DNA of 38,622 nt. Origin: Bacteroidia bacterium (GTDB lineage: Bacteria > Bacteroidota > Bacteroidia > AKYH767-A > OLB10). Location of the stretch: assembly GCA_016788185.1 (NCBI GenBank), contig JAEUTF010000005.1, forward strand, positions 1 to 38,622, written 5' to 3'. Positions within the stretch are counted from its first letter, which is position 1. The number at the start of each line of letters is the position of its first letter. This document shows, piece by piece, positions 15,421 to 38,265 of this stretch. Made by a program: the position numbers and the translations under genes. The notes below the pieces were generated by a model. It saw nothing but the letters and a program-made list of their open reading frames with translations, did not search any database and had not been told where the DNA came from.

Positions 15421-17505
15421 TTACTGAACGAAGGCGATCCGGCGTACAAATCGCTCGTTATCTACGGTAATGCGCAAGAGGTAGATGCCGGATAATCCTT
15501 CGCCATCCATCTCTTCCTGCATCATGCCGGCCACTACGCCCGCATTCCGGGTATGGATCAGCCGGCCGCTGAGGTCGGTCAGTTCCAGCAACACGGATGA
15601 AGGCTGCTCCAGGTTCATCCGGATCCGGATTTTATCCTGTGCCGGATTGGGAAATGCTTCAAAGGCGTATTTCGCCGCGAGCACTTCGCTGGTGCCTACC
15701 GTGCCTGTGAGGTTGATGTCATCGAGGTAAATGTTGTTTCCGTTCACATTCGTGAACTGGAATTTCAGGCGCACACTGGGTTTGCCGGAGATGGTGCCGG
15801 ATACCATGTTGACACTTTGCGTGGCCCACTGGGACGCCACCGGTACGAAGTTGCCCGTGGAATTGGGCGCGGTGCGAAGGCTCACTCCTTTCTTCAGAAA
15901 ACGCTGCGACCAGGTATCGCCGCAATTGGTGGAGACAAAAACGCGCAACTCACTGCTGTCGCTGTTGTTCTTGGCGGCAAAAGCATATTTAAAGCTGAGC
16001 ATCGTTCCGCTTACATTCGAGAGGTTAAACGTCGGCGTGATCACGGCATCCACACTGCCCGGTCCATTGCCGGCCTGGTTGGTCAGACGCAATGATTTCA
16101 CTCCGGTGGCTCCGGCCACGGAGGTCAGGATCCAGGGATTGTTGTTGTCGGGATTCTCCACCGCCCATTCTCCGCCGGGAAAAGCGATGGCCTCAAAACT
16201 TTCCGCGTACGGGATGCTGTTGCTGCCGGGCATGGGCAAGACCTCCACGATGCCGGCACGGGTAAGGATGTCGGTACCCGATCCGTTGCTGACCGTCAGG
16301 GTCACGTTGTAAAGTCCGGGGGTGTTGTATATAACGGTAGGGTTAGCCGAAGTGTCGGTAGCCGGTGTGCCGCCCGGAAACTGCCAGGTCCGGGAAATTA
16401 CCTCCCCGTTCCAGGATACATCCTTAAAGCTGATGGCCGTTCCGGCGCAGACCCCGCGGCGGTGGTTGCTGAAGTCGGCCACCGGTACGCAGGTCTGGAT
16501 GTTGCGTCCGATTTCCGTACCCGTCAGCAGCCAGTTGGAGGGGGTGGAAAGATTGTCGCGGCTGCCCACCGGCGCGTTCAGCGTGGCATGCATGGCCGAT
16601 TTCTGTCCTTCGGTAAACATGTAATGGCAGCTGGCGTAATCCATGTAGTTCTGCACATTGTCAATCGCCCCGCAAGTCGACTGCGCTGTGTTGCAGCTGA
16701 AGTTGCCAACACCAATGGTATTGGGGGTATCCCCGATCCCATCGTCGGTATTGCAGTTGGAAGGAAGGCCGGGAAAGTTGGTGGAACCCCAGGTATGCGG
16801 CAGGTCGAGCCAGTGTCCCACTTCGTGCGCCAGCGAACGCTCCGAATAATTGCTGCCGTTGGAGGTGCCGATCCCGCCCACATAATCGTGGAGGATCACC
16901 ACGCCGTCAATCGCCGCGTTGATGCCGGGATAGTAAGCGTAGCCCGCCGCGCCGCTGGCAATGTTCTGAACCACCCATACGTTGAAATAGCGGTCGGATG
17001 GCCAGCCGATCAAGCCTTTTACATTGTCACCGGCTTCCGCGGTGAGCGGCGAATAGGTGCGGGTAATACCGTCGGTGCAATTGCCATCCGGATCAAGGTT
17101 GGCTAATACAAATTCTATCTGGCAATCGGCAAAGATGGGCTGAAACAGGGGTATCACCATGCCGGTATCGCTGTTGAGCTTTTGAAAACTCTGGTTGAGA
17201 ATTTCCATCGCATCAAGAATCTGCGCTTTGCTGATGTTCTCCGGTCCGTAGGTGTGAATCACATGAAATACAATGGGAATCCGGTACAGGATGGTACCAT
17301 TGGCCGTGGTGCCCCTTTGTTTGGAGGCGAGAAAGGATTGCCGGAATGCACGAAGTTGCGCATTCCGCTGCGCAGCGCCGGGATCGGCCTCCACGGCCGC
17401 TTTCCATTTAAAGTCCGTGTCGCAGGTCCGGTACGCCGGTGTCTGTGCCTGAGCATGGAGAGTGGCCAGAACGAAGAACGCGACAGCCAGGATAACTTTA
17501 TTCAT
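15421..17505 (-). CDS. Secreted M43-family metalloprotease with PKD and T9SS sorting domains (paralogue 1)
   Basis: 694-aa exported zinc protease of the pappalysin/cytophagalysin family (M43). Signal peptide MNKVILAVAFFVLATLHAQAQ; a propeptide; then a catalytic domain opened by IPIVFHVIH and GPENISKAQILDAM. The zinc site is HEVGHWLDLPH (H227, E228, H231, H237) followed by TWG, and a Met-turn region MDYASCHYMF. The usual glycine of HExxHxxGxxH is aspartate here. A PKD domain (about 340-420) precedes a jelly-roll 'choice-of-anchor'/MAM-like domain ending in the YLDDINLTG strand, then a type A T9SS sorting domain with FEAFPNPAQDKI. It is a tandem paralogue of the next gene upstream, separated by a hairpin terminator. 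The substrate is unknown; nutrient proteolysis or processing of surface proteins are both plausible. Confidence 0.9.
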   Translation of the reverse strand: MNKVILAVAFFVLATLHAQAQTPAYRTCDTDFKWKAAVEADPGAAQRNAQLRAFRQSFLASKQRGTTANGTILYRIPIVFHVIHTYGPENISKAQILDAMEILNQSFQKLNSDTGMVIPLFQPIFADCQIEFVLANLDPDGNCTDGITRTYSPLTAEAGDNVKGLIGWPSDRYFNVWVVQNIASGAAGYAYYPGINAAIDGVVILHDYVGGIGTSNGSNYSERSLAHEVGHWLDLPHTWGSTNFPGLPSNCNTDDGIGDTPNTIGVGNFSCNTAQSTCGAIDNVQNYMDYASCHYMFTEGQKSAMHATLNAPVGSRDNLSTPSNWLLTGTEIGRNIQTCVPVADFSNHRRGVCAGTAISFKDVSWNGEVISRTWQFPGGTPATDTSANPTVIYNTPGLYNVTLTVSNGSGTDILTRAGIVEVLPMPGSNSIPYAESFEAIAFPGGEWAVENPDNNNPWILTSVAGATGVKSLRLTNQAGNGPGSVDAVITPTFNLSNVSGTMLSFKYAFAAKNNSDSSELRVFVSTNCGDTWSQRFLKKGVSLRTAPNSTGNFVPVASQWATQSVNMVSGTISGKPSVRLKFQFTNVNGNNIYLDDINLTGTVGTSEVLAAKYAFEAFPNPAQDKIRIRMNLEQPSSVLLELTDLSGRLIHTRNAGVVAGMMQEEMDGEGLSGIYLLRITVDNERFVRRIAFVQ

Positions 17506-17530
17506 GTGAGGGGGGTGTGCTTAACAAATA

Positions 17531-17555
17531 GCGCCCGGGATGAAGACCCGGGCGC
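17531..17555 (-). terminator. Hairpin terminator between the two M43 genes
   Basis: A perfect 9-bp stem, GCGCCCGGG paired with CCCGGGCGC, encloses a 7-nt loop 28 bp downstream of the stop of the upstream paralogue. On the minus strand it is followed by TATTTGTT, a weak U-tract, so termination may be partial. Confidence 0.6.
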
Positions 17556-17582
17556 AAAATTGAGGTTAGAATGTAATTCAGA

Positions 17583-19685
17583 TTATTTGAGTACCACTTT
17601 CTTGGTGACTGAACGGTCGCCAAAAGTCAGCCGCACAAAATACAGGCCTTTGGCGAGATCGTGGTTCATCGTATACTGATGCTCGCCGGCGGGCAGCTCG
17701 TCCTGGAAGGTGCTGACCATGCGTCCCTGCGCATCCGTCACATCAATCTTCACCGCGCCACCGATCGTCAGGTTGAAGTCAACATAGGTGGTGGAAGCAG
17801 AAGGATTCGGATAGATGCTGACGTTAGCGTTGTCGGCATTCACTTCGTCGATGCCCACGGTTCCGGTGAGGTTAATGTCATCGATGTAAATGTTGTTTCC
17901 GGTATCGTGCGTGAACTCGAAGCGGAAGCGGACATTGGGCTTGGTGGAGATGGAGGTCGGTGAAAGGTTCACGGTTTCCGTTCTCCACTGTGCTGCCGAA
18001 GGAATGAAGTCGTTGGCTACTGCTGCCGTGGTGGTTTGCAGCGCCGATCCCTGGCGGGTATAGCGCGGTGTCCACGACTGTCCGCAGTTGGTGGAGAAGT
18101 ACACCACCAGCTTGTCGGTATTGGATTGTGTGGCGGAGCCGAAGGCGAAGGCGAGTTTAAAGGTCATCACGGCCGCCGTCACGTTGGAGAGATCGAAGGC
18201 ATTGGTGATGAATTCATCGGGACCTTTGTCGTTGCCGGCGAAATTATAGAGGTTGATGGAATACTGTCCGGTGGCGGCGGCGGCATTGTTCACCTCCCAG
18301 GCACTGCCGTCGTTGGGGTTGAGCAGGTACCAGTCGTTGGCGGTGGGGAAAGCAGCGCCTTCAAATCCTTCGGAGAAAGGTACCGTGCCGGCGGCCGTGT
18401 TGGGACTCACCACCACCATGCCCGTCACCGTTTTAGTATCGGTACCGGCGGCATTGGTCTTGGTCAGCGTAACATCGTAGGTGCCTGGAGCCGCATAGGT
18501 CACGACCGGATTCGCCGAAGTGTCGGTGGCCGGTGTTCCGCCGTTGAAGGTCCACAAACGGGAGGTGGCTTCACCGCCCCAGGAGGCATCGTTGAACTGC
18601 GTGGAAGCGCCCTCGCAGATGAAGCGCTGCCGTGTGGCGAAGTCCGCTTTGGGCGCGCAAAGTACCGCGGGACTTCCGTCGGTACCGGTGGCCACCAGAT
18701 TGGCCGGCTGTGAGAGGTTGTTGCGTCCGCTCACCGCCGATGAAAGGGCCGCGTCCATGCGCGCCGCCTGTCCGGCAGAGAACATGTTCTGGCAGTCGCC
18801 GTTGGTGTAATCCATGTAATTGGTATACATATCGCCGTTAGGCGCGTTGTTGGGGCAGTTGCTGAGATGGGGAAAAGAAGGACAGATGGAAAGATTGGCT
18901 TCGAACTGAGGCGGGGTGTCGGATACGAAATCATTGCCACAGGTGGCATCGCCCCAGATGTGGCGCAGGTTCATCCAGTGTCCGATCTCGTGGGTGGCGG
19001 TGCGTCCGTTGTTGCCGCTGTTCGACGCGGTGCCGATGCTGCCCATGAAATCGTGTTTGATGACGACTCCGTCGGTGGTGGGGAGACCCGTTCCCGGGAA
19101 CTGTGCAAATCCAATCACCTGACCGGGTGAACCGCCGGTGTTGGCAATGCTGTTCACCACCCAGATGTTCAGGTACTGGTTGCTGGGCCAGTAACTCAGC
19201 GCTTTGACATTGTTTCGTGCATTGTAGGTGAGCGGGGAATAGACGCGAACAATCCCATCGGTACAGTTGCCGTTGGGATCCAGCTGCGCCATGCGGAATT
19301 CCACGTTGACGTTTCCGGCCAGGGGCCTGAATGCGGGCGGAATGTTGATGGTATCGAAATTGGTCAGACTGAAGTCTTTGTTCAGGGAGTCGATCTGATC
19401 GAGAATCTGCGCCTTTGAAATGTTTTCCGGTCCGCCGTAGTGGATCACATGCACCACCACCGGAATCACCCGGGGAACCAGGGAAACATTTTCAGTACCC
19501 AGTCCGGGATGCTGCTGCAGATATTCTGCGGTCCAGTCTTCAAGGGCCTGGCGGCTCTGCAGGAGTGCGGGATTTTTGGCAGCCTCTTCCTGGAACAGGA
19601 TTTCAGAGATGCATTTCTCCTGAGCCTGTACTCCGTTCAATGCAGCGGCGAAGAGCATGGCTGCAACAAGTAAAACTTTCTTCAT
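17583..19685 (-). CDS. Secreted M43-family metalloprotease with PKD and T9SS sorting domains (paralogue 2)
   Basis: 700-aa exported zinc protease with the same architecture as its neighbour: signal peptide ending GVQAQ, propeptide, catalytic domain (IPVVVHVIHYGGPENIS, DPNGNCTDGIVRVYSP), zinc motif HEIGHWMNLRH (H232, E233, H236, H242) with IWGDATCGNDFVSDTP, and a Met-turn region MDYTNGDCQNMFSAGQ. Then come a PKD domain, a jelly-roll domain ending YIDDINLTG, and a sorting domain with VSIYPNPSAS and a final LAKGLYFVRLTFGD...KKVVLK. Asparagine replaces the usual Gly of HExxHxxGxxH. The WGD-C-N..SDTP segment is complete here and less canonical in paralogue 1, so this copy looks closer to the ancestral form (inference). 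A near-match -7 element lies at 19719-19726. Confidence 0.9.
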   Translation of the reverse strand: MKKVLLVAAMLFAAALNGVQAQEKCISEILFQEEAAKNPALLQSRQALEDWTAEYLQQHPGLGTENVSLVPRVIPVVVHVIHYGGPENISKAQILDQIDSLNKDFSLTNFDTINIPPAFRPLAGNVNVEFRMAQLDPNGNCTDGIVRVYSPLTYNARNNVKALSYWPSNQYLNIWVVNSIANTGGSPGQVIGFAQFPGTGLPTTDGVVIKHDFMGSIGTASNSGNNGRTATHEIGHWMNLRHIWGDATCGNDFVSDTPPQFEANLSICPSFPHLSNCPNNAPNGDMYTNYMDYTNGDCQNMFSAGQAARMDAALSSAVSGRNNLSQPANLVATGTDGSPAVLCAPKADFATRQRFICEGASTQFNDASWGGEATSRLWTFNGGTPATDTSANPVVTYAAPGTYDVTLTKTNAAGTDTKTVTGMVVVSPNTAAGTVPFSEGFEGAAFPTANDWYLLNPNDGSAWEVNNAAAATGQYSINLYNFAGNDKGPDEFITNAFDLSNVTAAVMTFKLAFAFGSATQSNTDKLVVYFSTNCGQSWTPRYTRQGSALQTTTAAVANDFIPSAAQWRTETVNLSPTSISTKPNVRFRFEFTHDTGNNIYIDDINLTGTVGIDEVNADNANVSIYPNPSASTTYVDFNLTIGGAVKIDVTDAQGRMVSTFQDELPAGEHQYTMNHDLAKGLYFVRLTFGDRSVTKKVVLK

Positions 19686-23577: not shown

Positions 23578-25422
23578 TCACTCCACCAGCAGTTTCTCCC
23601 TGGCCATCTCCTTCCCTTCCGCATCTGCCACTACTACCTGGTACAGGCCGGCGCTGAGCGCTTCCGTTCTGAACCGGATTTCATTGCTTCCGGCGCTGAG
23701 CGATCCGTGAAAAAGTTGATGCACCAGCGCTCCTTTGTTATCGTAGATACGGATCGTTATACGTCCGGGAAGGGGTACCTCAAAACGGATGCTGGTCATG
23801 TCCTCCGCCGGATTGGGGTACAGCAGGGTCTGATTCTCCCGGCCCGTTTCCCCGAGCGCCTGGGCGGTGGTGACGGTCAGTTCTCCGATCCAGGTTCGCG
23901 TGACCCCGTTAAAAATGGTATAGGAACCGTTCACCCATACATAGCCCGGCTCGTTGTAGCGGGTCTGGCAGCCTGTATAATCGCCCCAGCGTTCATCGCC
24001 GATGAGCATGTTGCAGAAAGAGGCCCCGACCTTCACGATGGTCCGGGTGGAATAGGATGTGCCGTCAAAGGCCGCGGCGGCCGTCCCCGGAAACTGCGAA
24101 GGGGAAGCGTAGAGAAATCCAAAAACAGACTTGTGGTCGCCCGGCCCTGCTCCCGCCCAGGCAATGTTCGGATAGGCGATATCGGTATTGGGTACGGTAT
24201 AGATGAAGGCCGAGACATTGGGCGCGGTGGAAACCTGATGCACAAAGCCGTGGTAAATGCCGTCGTAGCCGCTGAGGGTATCCAGCACCGTCATCACAAA
24301 CTGAATCTGGTCGTCGTGCAGATAGGCCCCCATCACGCGGGCGTCGTTCACGATCAGCCGCTCCACGGTGCCCAGCTGATCGGCATCCACGGGCATGCGG
24401 TATTGCAGGGGACTTACCAGGGCCTGAATACTGACCTGCTGCGTGGCGCTGCCGATGGTGTCGCTGACATGCACCAGGAACAGCGTATCGTTGCCGGCGG
24501 AAAAGTTACGGTTGGAAAGGAAATAGGCGCCCGGTCCGTAGGTGCCCGGACCGCCCTTTACCGGACAAAGATTTCGTAGCTGCGATCCGTTATACTGCAT
24601 GTTTCCGTGCAGCTGTGTGTTCAGCGGCTGCCCCAGGTATCCGTTCTCCTTGTTGACCTGCCAGATGATCGTCTGGTTGAAACCGGTTTGCCAGGTGGAG
24701 TCGTTGTACAGGAGGTTTAAGGTGATGAAGAGTTCCTTGTCGCTCACGCTGAACATGGGAAAATCGGTCCACAGGCCGTTGTTGAAGGGATCGCCGGGCA
24801 GGGTATAAAAGTTCCAGAGACCGCTGGAGCTGTTTCCCTGCGAAAATCCCAGAATGATGTTGCTGGTGGTATCGTTGAATCCGTTGAGAAAGGCGATGAT
24901 GAAGCGGTCGCTGTCCGGATCATAAAGTATTTTCGGATCAAACTCTTCCATCGTCAGGCCGAGGCTGGCCACCAGCGAATGCAGGGTGACTGAACCGAAT
25001 ACCTGGTTGGTCGCCGTATTCTTGCCGTACAGCATGGTGTTGTTTACGCTGGCCACAAATCCTCCGTTGGAGATGGCCACATCGTTGTCGTTCGGCACAT
25101 ACAGGTTGAAGCCGTTACCGATAAAATTATCGAGCAACACCGGGGCATTGGCCGCGGTTTTTTGCGCTGAGGCCGGAGCCGCCTGCCGCCGCGAACGGTA
25201 TTGCGCATCGAGCGAAGCTTTGACCTGGCGAACCAGGGCCCGGTCGGCGCCCGGATGCGGCTTGGGCAATTGCTGATGCTTCAGCACCGGCAGCCAGGGA
25301 TCGCTTCCGGGACCCATGTTGTACACCGCTTTCAAAGGAAAGGTCATCACCGGCGAGGTGTAAACCTGTGCCTGAAGCTGTATGGAAATACACAGAACGA
25401 GAAGCAGTAATACTTTTTTCAT
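23578..25422 (-). CDS. Large secreted protein of unknown fold with T9SS sorting domain
   Basis: 614-aa exported protein with a standard signal peptide (MKKVLLLLVLCISIQLQAQ). After a proline-rich, basic linker (about residues 50-85), residues ~90-500 hold repeated strand patterns such as VPNDNDVAISNGGFVASVNN, FDPKILYDPDSDRFIIAFL and GLWTDFPMFSVSDKELFITL, resembling a beta-propeller. I cannot name the family with confidence. Only a few cysteines and no catalytic motif are evident. From about residue 530 a type A T9SS sorting domain is clear (TLLYPNPAEDMTSIRFEV, IRIYDNKGALV, LSAGLYQVVVADAEGKE). It is convergent with the FISUMP gene. A -7-like TATTTTTA lies 20 nt before the start. Confidence 0.8.
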   Translation of the reverse strand: MKKVLLLLVLCISIQLQAQVYTSPVMTFPLKAVYNMGPGSDPWLPVLKHQQLPKPHPGADRALVRQVKASLDAQYRSRRQAAPASAQKTAANAPVLLDNFIGNGFNLYVPNDNDVAISNGGFVASVNNTMLYGKNTATNQVFGSVTLHSLVASLGLTMEEFDPKILYDPDSDRFIIAFLNGFNDTTSNIILGFSQGNSSSGLWNFYTLPGDPFNNGLWTDFPMFSVSDKELFITLNLLYNDSTWQTGFNQTIIWQVNKENGYLGQPLNTQLHGNMQYNGSQLRNLCPVKGGPGTYGPGAYFLSNRNFSAGNDTLFLVHVSDTIGSATQQVSIQALVSPLQYRMPVDADQLGTVERLIVNDARVMGAYLHDDQIQFVMTVLDTLSGYDGIYHGFVHQVSTAPNVSAFIYTVPNTDIAYPNIAWAGAGPGDHKSVFGFLYASPSQFPGTAAAAFDGTSYSTRTIVKVGASFCNMLIGDERWGDYTGCQTRYNEPGYVWVNGSYTIFNGVTRTWIGELTVTTAQALGETGRENQTLLYPNPAEDMTSIRFEVPLPGRITIRIYDNKGALVHQLFHGSLSAGSNEIRFRTEALSAGLYQVVVADAEGKEMAREKLLVE

Positions 25423-31961: not shown

Positions 31962-32201
31962 ATGAAAATCAACAGGAATCAGCAGAAAGAATTGAAGAAA
32001 ATCGACCACTGCCTGCAACAGGTGGAAGAACTCAGCGAACAATTCAACCTGGACCTGGAAGACATCACCTTCATGACCAGTTTCCCTGATATTTCCCTGC
32101 AACTAAAAAAGGAAGTTTTTTCCCGAAACAAAAGCCGTCAGGAAGTTTTTGAAATCTCCCGCCGCGAAGCCGAAAGGAAGAGTGCGAAAATGATCCGCTG
32201 A
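31962..32201 (+). CDS. Small charged helical protein, unknown function (79 aa)
   Basis: 79-aa hypothetical protein, rich in K, E, Q and R, predicted to be mostly helical (KELKKIDHCLQQVEELSEQF and a basic C-terminal helix ISRREAERKSAKMIR). Codon use and the strong third-position pattern look like those of neighbouring genes, which is my reason to call it real. No family recognised; no signal peptide or membrane segment. It lies 74 bp before the sensor kinase gene on the same strand, so it may belong to the signalling cluster, but this is unproven. Confidence 0.65.
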   Translation: MKINRNQQKELKKIDHCLQQVEELSEQFNLDLEDITFMTSFPDISLQLKKEVFSRNKSRQEVFEISRREAERKSAKMIR

Positions 32202-32275
32202 ATTCCGGTCGTTCCTATTCACCCTGCTCCGTTAATTTTCCTTATTTTTTGGCTCTCAAAAATCCATCGTCCCTG

Positions 32276-34474
32276 ATGAAGAGGGCTTTAGCATTGTTCA
32301 CCCGGCATCCCCGTAAAAAATCCCTGCGCATTCGTCTGCTCATTTTCATCCTGTTTCTTATTTCGGTACATCAACAAGCCGGGGCACAGGAGGGCGACTT
32401 CTATGAATACCTGGGCACCTCCACATCGGTCAACGATTTCCTGAAACCACAGTTCAGCCGGCGTCCCCTTCCCTTCGCGGGCAATGAAGCGATCAACAAA
32501 AAACGTTTGCAGCAGGCGGTAGCCGAACGCCACGACAGGGGCATCGTCCAGGCCGCCGGCCATCTCGGGCTGATCTATCTGAAAAAAGAAGATCCGGCCA
32601 CCGCGCTGAAGTATTTCAGCCAATCGCTGGAATCGGCGCAAAAGCTGAAAGACGACAAAGCGGCGGGCGTAGCGCACATACAATGCGGACTGGCCCGGCA
32701 GCTTTTGGGTGATTTTTCGGCTGCGCTCAACAGTTATGAGCAGGCGACCCTGCTGGTCTCCGTTCAGAACCTTCCCAAAGTCAGCGCTTACCTCCTGGCC
32801 CAGAAAGGACAATGCTATCTTTCCCTTCGTGAATTTCCAAAGGCGGAAGAATCCTTTTTGCGTGCCGCAAAAGCCTATGCGAGCCTGCAACTGAACCTGC
32901 AAACCGCAGCCTGTTACAACAGCGCCGGGGAAGTGCAGCTGCGGCAGAACGATTACAAGCGCGCCCTGGAGAGTTTTAACGCGGGCATAAATGTGATTGC
33001 TCCCGGCAAAGAAAACAGCCTGCTTGCCATCTTGTACCGCAACATGGGACTCACCGAGTTCAAGCGGGGCAAATTTGAAGAGGCCATCAACTATTTCCGA
33101 AAAAGCCTGAGCTTCGACCAGCAGCTGCTGGTTCACAAACTGGTGAAGGATGCCTACATGCAGCTGTTTACCCTGTACAGTTTCAGCAACAATTTCGCGA
33201 AGGCAGACTATTACCACGAAAAGTACCGTTCACTGAAAGACTCCCTGGCTACCGCGGTGAAGAAAGCGCCGGGCAACAAAGCGCAACTGAAATCGGAACT
33301 GGAGGAGAAGCTGCGGGTAATCGAACTGCTGCAAAAGCAAAGCCAGGAACAGGCCCTGGCCACCAATGCCCGCCAGCTGGAGCTGAGCCAGATGATCACC
33401 AAGGCGGACATCGAGCTCCACCAGAAGGACCAGGCTCTGGAAGCGAAGACTGCAGAAGTGGAGCAGCTCACCAGGGAAAAAGCCATCCGGGAACGCGACC
33501 TCGCCAGACAGGAATTGCTGATCAGTAATCAGAAAAATTTCCGTAACTTGCTGATCGCGGTATCGGCCGTAGCGTTGCTGCTCGTGTTGCTGCTGTATAA
33601 CCGCTATGCCTTAAAGAAAAAATCCAATCAGAAATTGCAGGATTCAAACCGGGAACTGGAAGATACGCTGAAGCAGTTGCGGGCTACACAGGATCAACTG
33701 ATTCAGAGTGAAAAGATGGCGTCGCTGGGCCAGCTCACCGCCGGCATTGCCCATGAAATTCAAAACCCGCTCAACTTTGTCAATAATTTTTCGGAAGGAG
33801 CCCAGGATGTACTGGACGAATTTCTGGAGGCCAGGAGCGAGGAGGAAAGATCGGAACTGGCCAAAGAACTTCGGGAAAGCCTGAAGAAAATCAACCAGCA
33901 CGGACGGCGCGCCGAACGCATTGTAAAAAGCATGCTTCAGCACAGCCGGCAGGGCAACGGCGAAATGGAACTGAGCGACCTGAACCAGTTGCTGCACGAA
34001 TCCATCCACCTGGCCTACCACGGCATGCGCGCCACGCACAAGGATTTTCAATGCTCCCTCGAGGAGGATCTGCAGGCCGATATCCCCAGGCTGTCGCTCA
34101 TCCCGCAGGACATCAACCGGGTGTTCCTGAACATCGCCAACAATGCCTTTTATGCCCTGAGTGAAAAAGCCAGGAAAAACCCGGGGAGCAGAAGCATTTT
34201 CAGAGTCAGCTCCAAAGTCCGGGACGGACAGGTGGAAGTGCGCCTCAGAGATAACGGTCCGGGTATACCGAAAAAGGTTTCCGAACAGATCTTTCAGCCT
34301 TTCTTCACCACCAAACCCACCGGACATGGGACGGGTCTGGGTCTCAGCATGAGTTACGACATTATCACGAAAGTACACCAGGGAAAAATCGAACTGCAGA
34401 GTGCGGAAAATGAATTCACCGAATTCATCATTACCCTGCCCCTCGCTGTAAATCAAAATGCCAATGAAGCTTAG
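32276..34474 (+). CDS. TPR-containing membrane sensor histidine kinase
   Basis: 732-aa membrane sensor kinase from ATG 32276. An N-terminal signal or membrane segment (LRIRLLIFILFLISVHQQAGAQ) leads to a periplasmic sensor of about six tetratricopeptide repeats (roughly residues 75-310, e.g. AAGHLGLIYLKKEDPATALK, AAYNSAGEVQLRQNDYKRA-type units). A coiled coil (about 335-420) and a second membrane helix (about 425-445, LLIAVSAVALLLVLLLY) follow. The kinase core has the phosphorylated H493 in IAHEIQNPLNFVNNFSE, an N box NIANNAFYAL, and DNGPGIP...FFTTKPTGHGTGLGLSMS for ATP binding. A TTG start at 32249 is possible but gives no better signal. Its 3' end overlaps the next gene, so the two are translationally linked. 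This TPR-kinase layout is common in Bacteroidota; the stimulus is unknown. Confidence 0.9.
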   Translation: MKRALALFTRHPRKKSLRIRLLIFILFLISVHQQAGAQEGDFYEYLGTSTSVNDFLKPQFSRRPLPFAGNEAINKKRLQQAVAERHDRGIVQAAGHLGLIYLKKEDPATALKYFSQSLESAQKLKDDKAAGVAHIQCGLARQLLGDFSAALNSYEQATLLVSVQNLPKVSAYLLAQKGQCYLSLREFPKAEESFLRAAKAYASLQLNLQTAACYNSAGEVQLRQNDYKRALESFNAGINVIAPGKENSLLAILYRNMGLTEFKRGKFEEAINYFRKSLSFDQQLLVHKLVKDAYMQLFTLYSFSNNFAKADYYHEKYRSLKDSLATAVKKAPGNKAQLKSELEEKLRVIELLQKQSQEQALATNARQLELSQMITKADIELHQKDQALEAKTAEVEQLTREKAIRERDLARQELLISNQKNFRNLLIAVSAVALLLVLLLYNRYALKKKSNQKLQDSNRELEDTLKQLRATQDQLIQSEKMASLGQLTAGIAHEIQNPLNFVNNFSEGAQDVLDEFLEARSEEERSELAKELRESLKKINQHGRRAERIVKSMLQHSRQGNGEMELSDLNQLLHESIHLAYHGMRATHKDFQCSLEEDLQADIPRLSLIPQDINRVFLNIANNAFYALSEKARKNPGSRSIFRVSSKVRDGQVEVRLRDNGPGIPKKVSEQIFQPFFTTKPTGHGTGLGLSMSYDIITKVHQGKIELQSAENEFTEFIITLPLAVNQNANEA

Positions 34475-34847
34475 GCTGCTGATTGTGGATGATGAAGAAG
34501 ACGTGGAATTGCTTTTCAGGCAGCGCCTTCGTAAAATGAGCCGGGATGGCCAGGTAGAACTGGACTTTGCCTTCTCGGGAGAACAGGCGCTGGACCTCCT
34601 GCAGCAATCCGCACCACCGGCTATCACCCTGATTCTGTCCGACATCAACATGCCGGGCATGTCGGGCTTTGAACTGCTTGAAAAAGTGAAGCGCGATTAC
34701 CCCGGACTAAAGGTTATGATGATCAGTGCCTACGACGACCATGAACACGAGAAGAAGGCACGCACGCTCGGCGCCGACGACTTCATCCCAAAACCGGTCG
34801 ATTTCAAACGGCTCGAAGAAAGACTCCATAGCCTGGCGGAAATGTAA
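34458..34847 (+). CDS. Single-domain response regulator (CheY-like)
   Basis: 129-aa stand-alone receiver domain with no output domain. Acidic pocket D11-D12, phosphoacceptor D62 in LILSDINMPGMSG, the conserved Ser in VMMISAYDD and the lysine in FIPKPVDF are all present, so it should be phosphorylated. The start codon overlaps the 3' end of the sensor kinase gene by 17 nt (11 nt if ATG 34464 is used), a strong sign that the two are a cognate pair. Its sequence is close to the N-terminal receiver of the hybrid kinase at 35646 (shared D-E-x-D-x-E-x-L-x-x-Q-R-x-R-K, A-x-x-GEQAL, DINMP, KPxDF). Likely acts by protein contact or as a phosphate relay. Confidence 0.92.
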   Translation: MPMKLRLLIVDDEEDVELLFRQRLRKMSRDGQVELDFAFSGEQALDLLQQSAPPAITLILSDINMPGMSGFELLEKVKRDYPGLKVMMISAYDDHEHEKKARTLGADDFIPKPVDFKRLEERLHSLAEM

Positions 34848-34921: not shown

Positions 34922-35623
34922 ATGTTGATCCATCCGGCTATACAGCGGGAAGTAAATTCTGCTTCCGGTAAAAGAAAAGGTTCCGTCGTGCCGGTGCTGC
35001 TGCTGCTGCTTTTGGCAGGACCGACGGTAGCGCAAAAAAAAGCGGTCTTGATCAATGCCAGTCTGAGCCAGCCGGAAAAGCCCATCGCCTATACCGGGGT
35101 CGACAATGTTATCATGCTGCGTGGTGATTTGAAAGGAAGTTACATCCGCCTGGAACGCAGCGGCGGAGATATTGAAATGCGGGCAGGCATGGCCGTTAAA
35201 ACCGTTTTGCGGTATGATCAGGAAGGGCTTGATACCCTCCGGGTTTACAGCGACGGGCAACTGGTGATCGAAAAAGTGTACACCATCAAAAAGCCAGGCC
35301 CCTATGCAGCCGCACCGGCCGACTGCAGCGATCCCTTGCTGACCAGGGAGGCCCTGCTGAAAGCAGGCAAACTGGAGCTGACCATGCCCGGAACCTGGTA
35401 CAAAGCCAGGGGAAAGGTGCTGTCCTACACCGTGTCGGTACAGGATGCGGAAGGCAGAAGTCAGGGCAAATACAAAATGGAATCGGCCCCCTTCAGCGAA
35501 GCCTTAAAAACCGTCCTGGGCCGCCTGTCCTCCGGAAGTCAGCTGCACATCAGCAGCATCAAAGGACTCAGCTCGGAAGGAACGGTACTCAGCCTGCCGG
35601 ATTTGAAAATCAGCATCAAATAA
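34922..35623 (+). CDS. Secreted protein resembling the C-terminal domains of GldM
   Basis: 233-aa exported protein; signal peptide with a long basic n-region and a leucine run (VVPVLLLLLLAGPTVAQ, cleavage near residue 38). The mature part follows the pattern I know from the periplasmic D3-D4 part of the T9SS/gliding motor protein GldM (PorM): YTGVDNVIMLRG (Y57; GldM has a GVDNP motif here), an Ig-like strand set, a KKPGPYAA-type linker in place of the RIPDP linker, REALLKAGKLEL, VLSYTVSVQD, then a GSQLHISSIKGLSSEGTVLSLP end resembling the last strands of GldM. The transmembrane helix and D1-D2 domains of real GldM are absent, so it cannot be the motor subunit itself. No adjacent gldK, L or N. 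Placed between two receiver-containing signalling genes. Assignment is by eye, not by a profile search. Confidence 0.6.
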   Translation: MLIHPAIQREVNSASGKRKGSVVPVLLLLLLAGPTVAQKKAVLINASLSQPEKPIAYTGVDNVIMLRGDLKGSYIRLERSGGDIEMRAGMAVKTVLRYDQEGLDTLRVYSDGQLVIEKVYTIKKPGPYAAAPADCSDPLLTREALLKAGKLELTMPGTWYKARGKVLSYTVSVQDAEGRSQGKYKMESAPFSEALKTVLGRLSSGSQLHISSIKGLSSEGTVLSLPDLKISIK

Positions 35624-35645: not shown

Positions 35646-37223
<1,578 letters not shown>

Positions 37224-37373: not shown

Positions 37374-37736
37374 ATGGATCAGCAAGGCCCGTTGACCGAT
37401 CTCAGCTATTTACGCAGTCTGACCGGTGGAGCAAGCGACAAAATGTCGAAATACATCCGGATGTTCTTAACCGGTGCCCCCATCAGCATTCAGCAGATGG
37501 ATTTGTACATGATGAGTAAGGATTGGTCGGGCTTGCGCCAGACGGCCCATGCACTGAAGCCCCAGCTCGGCTATTTTGGCGCCAAGGGAACAGAAAATCT
37601 AATCAAGGAGATTGAGCGTATGTCGGGCGACCAGGTAGAACTGGAACGCATCCCCGAAATGCTCGAGAATTTCCGCAGTCAATATGAAATCATCAGTGCG
37701 GAACTCGAACAATCCCTTCGTGAAATAGGCAATTAA
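37374..37736 (+). CDS. HPt (histidine phosphotransfer) domain protein
   Basis: 120-aa stand-alone histidine phosphotransfer protein. A helical bundle with phosphorylatable H59 in QTAHALKPQLGYFG; the H-x-L-K arrangement and the Gly four helical turns on are as in known HPt domains. In a phosphorelay it would take phosphate from receiver 2 of the hybrid kinase upstream and pass it to a final receiver. The only separate receivers in the window are at 34458 and, directly downstream with a 7-bp gap, 37744. No kinase or output domain is present. Its own promoter lies in the 150-bp gap after the hybrid kinase gene. Confidence 0.88.
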   Translation: MDQQGPLTDLSYLRSLTGGASDKMSKYIRMFLTGAPISIQQMDLYMMSKDWSGLRQTAHALKPQLGYFGAKGTENLIKEIERMSGDQVELERIPEMLENFRSQYEIISAELEQSLREIGN

Positions 37737-37743
37737 ATCCATC

Positions 37744-38265
37744 ATGGCAGACAAAACACTCGTTTTTATTGTTGATGACGAACCCCTTCAACGGGACATG
37801 CTGAAAGATCATCTTTCCAAGATGTCATCCTATGAAGTACACGACTTCCCCACCGGAGAAGAGTGCATTGCCGCCGCCAGGGTACGCCAACCCAATATTG
37901 TATTTCTTGATTACAACCTGAATTCGCAGGTGAAGGAAGCCATGGACGGCATCGATGTATTGAAAGAACTTAAAAACATTCAGCCCGACATGGAAGTGGT
38001 TATGATTTCGGGTCAGGATAAAATTGAAGTGGCCGTGAACTCCATGAAGTATGGCGCCTTCGATTATATCGTAAAGGGAGAGGGCGCTTTTCTGAGAGCT
38101 GAAAAAGCCGTTTTCAACATTTACAGGTTCCACAAACTGCAGGGCAATGCCACCCGCTACAAAAAACTGATGTTGTTTTTCGGTGTGGGCATGCTGGTGA
38201 TGATTGCCATTGTGATTTATCTTCAGACCTCCGGCTACATCCGCTCGAGTCCGGGCTGGTATTGA
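37744..38265 (+). CDS. Receiver domain protein with C-terminal membrane helix
   Basis: 173-aa protein. Residues 1-~125 are a receiver: D11-D12 pocket, phosphoacceptor D56 in VFLDYNLNS, conserved Ser in VVMISGQDK, and lysine in YIVKGEGAF (the following residue is Gly rather than the usual Pro). A basic helix follows, then a single transmembrane segment at about 142-162 (LMLFFGVGMLVMIAIVIYLQ), and a short tail (SGYIRSSPGWY) predicted to be periplasmic. No DNA-binding or enzyme domain. The 7-bp gap to the HPt gene indicates one operon. This puts a receiver at the inner face of the cytoplasmic membrane, presumably to act on a membrane partner; that role is inference. Confidence 0.88.
   Translation: MADKTLVFIVDDEPLQRDMLKDHLSKMSSYEVHDFPTGEECIAAARVRQPNIVFLDYNLNSQVKEAMDGIDVLKELKNIQPDMEVVMISGQDKIEVAVNSMKYGAFDYIVKGEGAFLRAEKAVFNIYRFHKLQGNATRYKKLMLFFGVGMLVMIAIVIYLQTSGYIRSSPGWY

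Follow-up and report, generated by a model that had tools for sequence, protein, structure and literature searches.

The predicted protein P0001, encoded in a window of 38,622 nucleotides (the whole stretch of DNA analysed) from a freshwater Bacteroidota bacterium, is a paralogue of the GldM tail without the motor (transmembrane helix, D1 and D2) and not a second GldM. Judged from profile comparisons, the mature protein is homologous to the D3-D4 domains of GldM/PorM over its whole length, beyond chance. The secretion signal, the D3-D4 homology, the lack of motor parts and a conserved position in a signalling cluster lead us to favour, with evenly divided confidence, the explanation that P0001 is a GldM-tail-derived free periplasmic accessory (an input or adaptor) of its trans-envelope signalling system. 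The features of the locus are the following.

32249..34474, + strand: sensor histidine kinase with signal/TM, TPR region, TM 431-449, HisKA and HATPase (Pfam, hydropathy)
34458..34847, + strand: single receiver (REC) protein (Pfam)
34922..35623, + strand: P0001, stand-alone secreted GldM D3-D4-like protein of 233 aa (profiles; homologues L007/L171 and L008)
34922..35032, + strand: signal peptide, residues 1-37, cleavage PTVA/QKK near A37/Q38, judged by eye
35054..35296, + strand: D3-like Ig domain, about residues 45-125, with the YTGVDN signature (hhalign and MAFFT against 58 GldM tails)
35300..35620, + strand: D4-like domain, about residues 127-233 (Pfam GldM_4th, 17.5 bits, residues 141-222)
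35646..37223, + strand: soluble hybrid histidine kinase REC-HisKA-HATPase-REC (Pfam)
37374..37736, + strand: Hpt phosphotransfer protein (Pfam)
37744..38265, + strand: receiver with a C-terminal transmembrane helix (Pfam; hydropathy peak 2.75 at residue 142)

The P0001 gene begins with ATG. It was considered a real coding sequence because diverged homologues occupy the same context in two congeneric genomes (41% and 44% identity, the second ending at a contig end). A scan for promoters and terminators at the locus found fewer sites than in shuffled sequences. By hydropathy, the protein has a single hydrophobic stretch, the signal peptide (peak at residue 20), and no further membrane helix. The AQK at the predicted cleavage site is kept in alignments A1 and A2, and there is no lipobox Cys. 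The N-terminal transmembrane helix with the conserved Glu, which GldM inserts into the GldL pentamer, is absent, and Pfam found neither GldM_1st nor GldM_2nd (the D1 helical bundle and the D2 domain), nor a T9SS C-terminal sorting domain (Por_Secre_tail or CHU_C). The GVDN motif (residues 59-62) and the final strands IKGLSSEGTVLSLP (residues 212-225) are present as the preliminary description had claimed.

Searched alone against Pfam, P0001 reached GldM_4th with 17.5 bits (E=0.0065), under the cut-off of 24.6, so the resemblance escapes a single-sequence scan; a PDB search with the single sequence returned nothing relevant. An AbrB-like Pfam match (19 bits, cut-off 25), covering 33 residues and absent in relatives, was rejected as chance. 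Across the host genome, the only GldM_4th matches were the true GldM (69 bits) and the P0001 gene (18.9 bits). The genus-only profile (A3) gave weak HMG-box matches only in the PDB, and it matched full-length GldM with up to 28.9 bits (E=6e-8). Aligned by hhalign with the D3-D4 tails of 58 GldMs, it scored 77.4 over 184 columns (97.5% probability), while 60 column shuffles used as control stayed at scores of 18.8 or less and probabilities of 1.2% or less. The profile of the wider subfamily scored 155.8 against the GldM tails (99.6%), and in the PDB it found PorM/GldM chains only (E=3.8e-11). Moreover, one member of this subfamily (L117) matched GldM_4th with 29.3 bits, above Pfam's own cut-off. 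An AlphaFold2 model of P0001, built with three sequences, was too poor for reading interfaces (pLDDT 51.5, pTM 0.36). Foldseek nevertheless placed seven PorM/GldM chains on top of its list, the best match being the PorM D3-D4 crystal 6ey6 (E=1.4e-6); as the TM-scores are low, this ranking is counted as support only. Together with the lone signal peptide, these profile and fold comparisons bear out the earlier description of a secreted protein that has only the D3-D4 part of GldM and no motor helix. In the tree, the window clade falls outside the group with the true GldMs, the deep forks being weak.

GldM/PorM (Pfam GldM_1st, GldM_2nd, GldM_3rd and GldM_4th; PDB 6ey4, 6ey5, 6ey6 and 7cmg) is the axle of the T9SS/gliding motor. 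P0001 is like it in the D3-D4 pair over the mature length, the YxGVxN signature, the D4 hairpin and the last strands. It is unlike GldM in having a signal peptide instead of the transmembrane helix, in lacking D1, D2 and the NFDF motif that is common in GldM D4, and in lying outside the gldKLMN operon, which the host genome carries complete and in one copy elsewhere (G000:C225), together with a PorP/SprF-like gene.

The genes around P0001 are closely packed. The REC gene shares 17 bp with the kinase gene, and 74 bp separate it from the P0001 gene, which is followed after 22 bp by the hybrid kinase. The preliminary description had set the gene between two receiver genes; this holds upstream, but the downstream neighbour is a hybrid histidine kinase with REC domains at both ends. 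The cluster is closed by the membrane-anchored receiver (37744-38265), which is 80% identical in G001, and an ORF of 79 aa without Pfam match (31962-32201) precedes the TPR kinase; G001, G002, G007 and G022 have counterparts of 81-92 aa in the corresponding position. The order kinase, REC, GldM-like gene, hybrid kinase is the same in the window and in G001 (L171), and in G002 (L008) as far as the contig end, which lies inside the GldM-like gene. The linkage of the P0001 gene with a membrane sensor is therefore kept completely in two genomes and to the contig end in a third, and placement in a signalling cluster is conserved within the genus. In a fourth congener (G003), neither the GldM-like gene nor a hybrid-kinase match was found at the threshold used.

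Outside the genus, the relay occurs in other forms. In the sister genus g5 (G007, G022) the hybrid kinase directly follows the TPR kinase, and in g4 (G006, G017, G019) the receiver adjoins the hybrid kinase, in both cases without a GldM-like gene. Since the gene is confined to the version of the relay in this genus, it was most simply added to an existing relay. At two g4 loci (L162 in G017, L164 in G006), the orthologues of the receiver and the hybrid kinase lie beside PorP/SprF-like and OmpA-type genes (Pfam, G017), beyond which G006 carries an SprB-repeat/CHU_C gene; at these loci the sensor kinase carries, as tested in G017, a Reg_prop propeller in place of the TPRs. These neighbours hint at a T9SS connection of the relay.

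According to the favoured explanation, a copy of the GldM tail would have dropped the transmembrane helix, D1 and D2 and become a free periplasmic protein exported via Sec, folded as a D3-D4 pair and possibly as a D3-swapped dimer. The D3-D4 pair would bind a partner in the envelope, perhaps the T9SS ring or GldM, perhaps a different one, and P0001 would hand the state of this partner to the TPR sensor kinase; binding to the TPRs and the direction of signalling are presumed. The kinase would then signal to the receiver, the hybrid kinase and the Hpt protein. Because hydropathy predicts a periplasmic TPR region, the kinase and P0001 could meet. The recurrence of free D3-D4 or D4 proteins beside ECF-sigma/anti-sigma-like pairs, including one fusion, also speaks for an accessory. 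Against it stand the closest relatives beyond the genus, which have no signalling neighbours (L117, L122, L124 and L183), a relay that runs without P0001 in a sister genus, and the origin of the sigma-linked proteins from another branch of a poorly resolved tree.

This recurrence was found by searching a profile of four free proteins (A1) in 296 Bacteroidia genomes, which yielded, GldM aside, some 30 stand-alone proteins. These are roughly 209-288 aa long, and in most of them a signal peptide or a lipobox was recognised by eye. An anti-sigma-like gene for a single-TM protein lies upstream of the free D3-D4 gene in 21 of 33 loci (9 families), which is not an unbiased rate, as A1 contained one sigma-linked protein; an ECF sigma gene comes before the single-TM gene in 17 of the 33. 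The single-TM proteins, of about 490-710 aa with a short fused form in L126, have no Pfam match, and their gene position suggests a putative anti-sigma role. To lessen the search bias, 18 other loci were taken via the TM family's own profile: an ECF sigma gene was present in all 18, and in 7 of them one to three free D3-D4 or D4 genes that were new to the survey followed directly downstream. The fusion (L126:5614-6396), directly after an ECF sigma gene, joins an anti-sigma-like N-terminus and transmembrane segment to a GldM D4-like domain; it scores 34.5 bits with A1 and 40.2 bits with the anti-sigma-like profile. A third context is seen at L172:9834-17347, where three SpoIIE phosphatases, two of which have TPRs, are encoded together with three lipoproteins, two of them of D3-D4 and one of D2-D3 type. 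Across Bacteroidia such free proteins are widespread, and pieces of the motor appear to be reused as signalling parts. As further observations, the operon of ECF sigma, single-TM and secreted D3-D4 or D4 genes was seen in L103-L120, L123, L131, L134 and L191-L208, the secreted genes sometimes standing two or three in tandem; an HK-RR pair follows it in L109, L114 and L115; and L121 has upstream a large protein starting PYPGLRPF, nSTAND-like by eye.

We also considered a wider and doubtful proposal, that free D3-D4 and D4 proteins form a widespread Bacteroidia class of periplasmic signalling inputs that would read the T9SS/gliding ring via a copied piece of the motor. It would cover ECF sigma/anti-sigma-like operons, TPR phosphatases and the kinase phosphorelay. 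Some free copies were placed among the true GldMs, suggesting several origins. In ECF sigma/membrane anti-sigma systems, the ECF sigma and single-TM genes adjoin many free D3-D4 proteins, whereas the window has a kinase relay and no ECF pair. To our knowledge, the sensing of T9SS assembly or load and its feedback to gene control are poorly understood; a motor-derived tail, free in sigma-factor and kinase operons, would, if this is true, be a concrete candidate T9SS sensor. The known T9SS regulatory circuit PorXY-SigP is similar in that two-component and ECF-sigma signalling are tied to the T9SS, and differs in that the abstracts on this circuit mention no free GldM-like subunit (PMC4800418, PMC8265659). 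Unlike PorX, the window receivers stand singly or in a hybrid kinase, without a further PorX-type domain, and their T9SS link is presumptive. The open-access library searched contained no paper joining GldM with ECF sigma and anti-sigma, and no description of a free GldM C-terminal protein, the "GldM homologs" of the one relevant paper being full-length proteins; this absence is no proof of novelty.

Among the rival explanations, the one that survives best, possible although we would not expect it, is that P0001 is an orphan envelope protein (for example of an envelope structure) built from a GldM-derived Ig pair, unrelated to the kinases and inserted as a hitch-hiker. The closest homologues outside the genus (L117, L122, L124 and L183), which form the P0001 subfamily with the signature NxSLxxP...YxGVxN, lie in unrelated contexts, and the protein drifts fast. 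The gaps on the two sides of the gene, 247 and 366 bp in L007, are also wider there than in the window. However, the short distances in the window, the gene order kept between species though the protein is down to 41% identity, and the fact that this domain pair keeps turning up in signalling operons across many families all argue against an orphan.

Less probable, and in our judgement improbable, is a T9SS/gliding modulator that takes the place of GldM D4 on GldN/GldK and tunes the coupling between GldLM and the ring, its dose being set by the relay. Besides the D3-D4 homology, this would fit the finding in P. gingivalis that D4 is the PorN-binding domain of PorM (PMC5790014, PMC12421860), that D4 alone is enough for binding, that D3 and D4 together make a stable fragment (PMC5790014), and that PorM S460 crosslinks to A241 (PMC12421860). 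The D4-like hairpin of P0001 (DAEGRS, 175-180) aligns with this PorN-contacting hairpin, S460 falling on A176 with a hairpin of similar length (mapped by hand), so the contact element seems retained in outline. The genomes with free copies also have the T9SS (SprA in 29 of 30, the exception being incomplete; the GldM N-domain, GldM_1st, in 29 of 30), which is a weak result because the system is present in about 90% of the sampled genomes anyway. Against a modulator, P0001 is only 20.7% identical to the tail of the host's own GldM and lacks NFDF. Rates of change point the same way. Within the genus, P0001 is 41-44% identical, compared with 87-89% for GldM, 89-92% for GldN, 97% for GldK and 93% for GldL. 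Between the window and G001, the identity of 41% divides into 56% for the D3-like half and 32% for the D4-like half, the least conserved part; the TPR kinase (53%), the hybrid kinase (78%) and Hpt (80%) are better kept. A GldN surface shared with GldM would make D4 the best-kept part of the protein, and it is the worst kept. Therefore, competition for the GldK/GldN contact, raised in the preliminary description, has become less likely. The connection of the relay with the T9SS and gliding proposed there keeps indirect support, from a single other genus in which hybrid-kinase orthologues lie beside PorP/SprF, OmpA-type and SprB-repeat genes and from free D3-D4 proteins in sigma-factor operons of T9SS-positive genomes; we infer a T9SS link of P0001 from these.

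Finally, it is hardly credible that P0001 is unrelated to GldM and that generic Ig-like strands resemble each other here by accident: such a match would suit the sub-threshold single-sequence searches, with the AbrB-like family as top sub-threshold Pfam match and HMG-box matches from A3, but it is effectively refuted by hhalign matches over the full length far above the shuffles and by the subfamily PDB search, and the fold search too put PorM/GldM chains first.

The window also encodes T9SS cargo at 15421-19685 and 23578-25422: two M43 metalloproteases, which carry PKD domains and T9SS sorting tails, and one further protein that has a T9SS tail.
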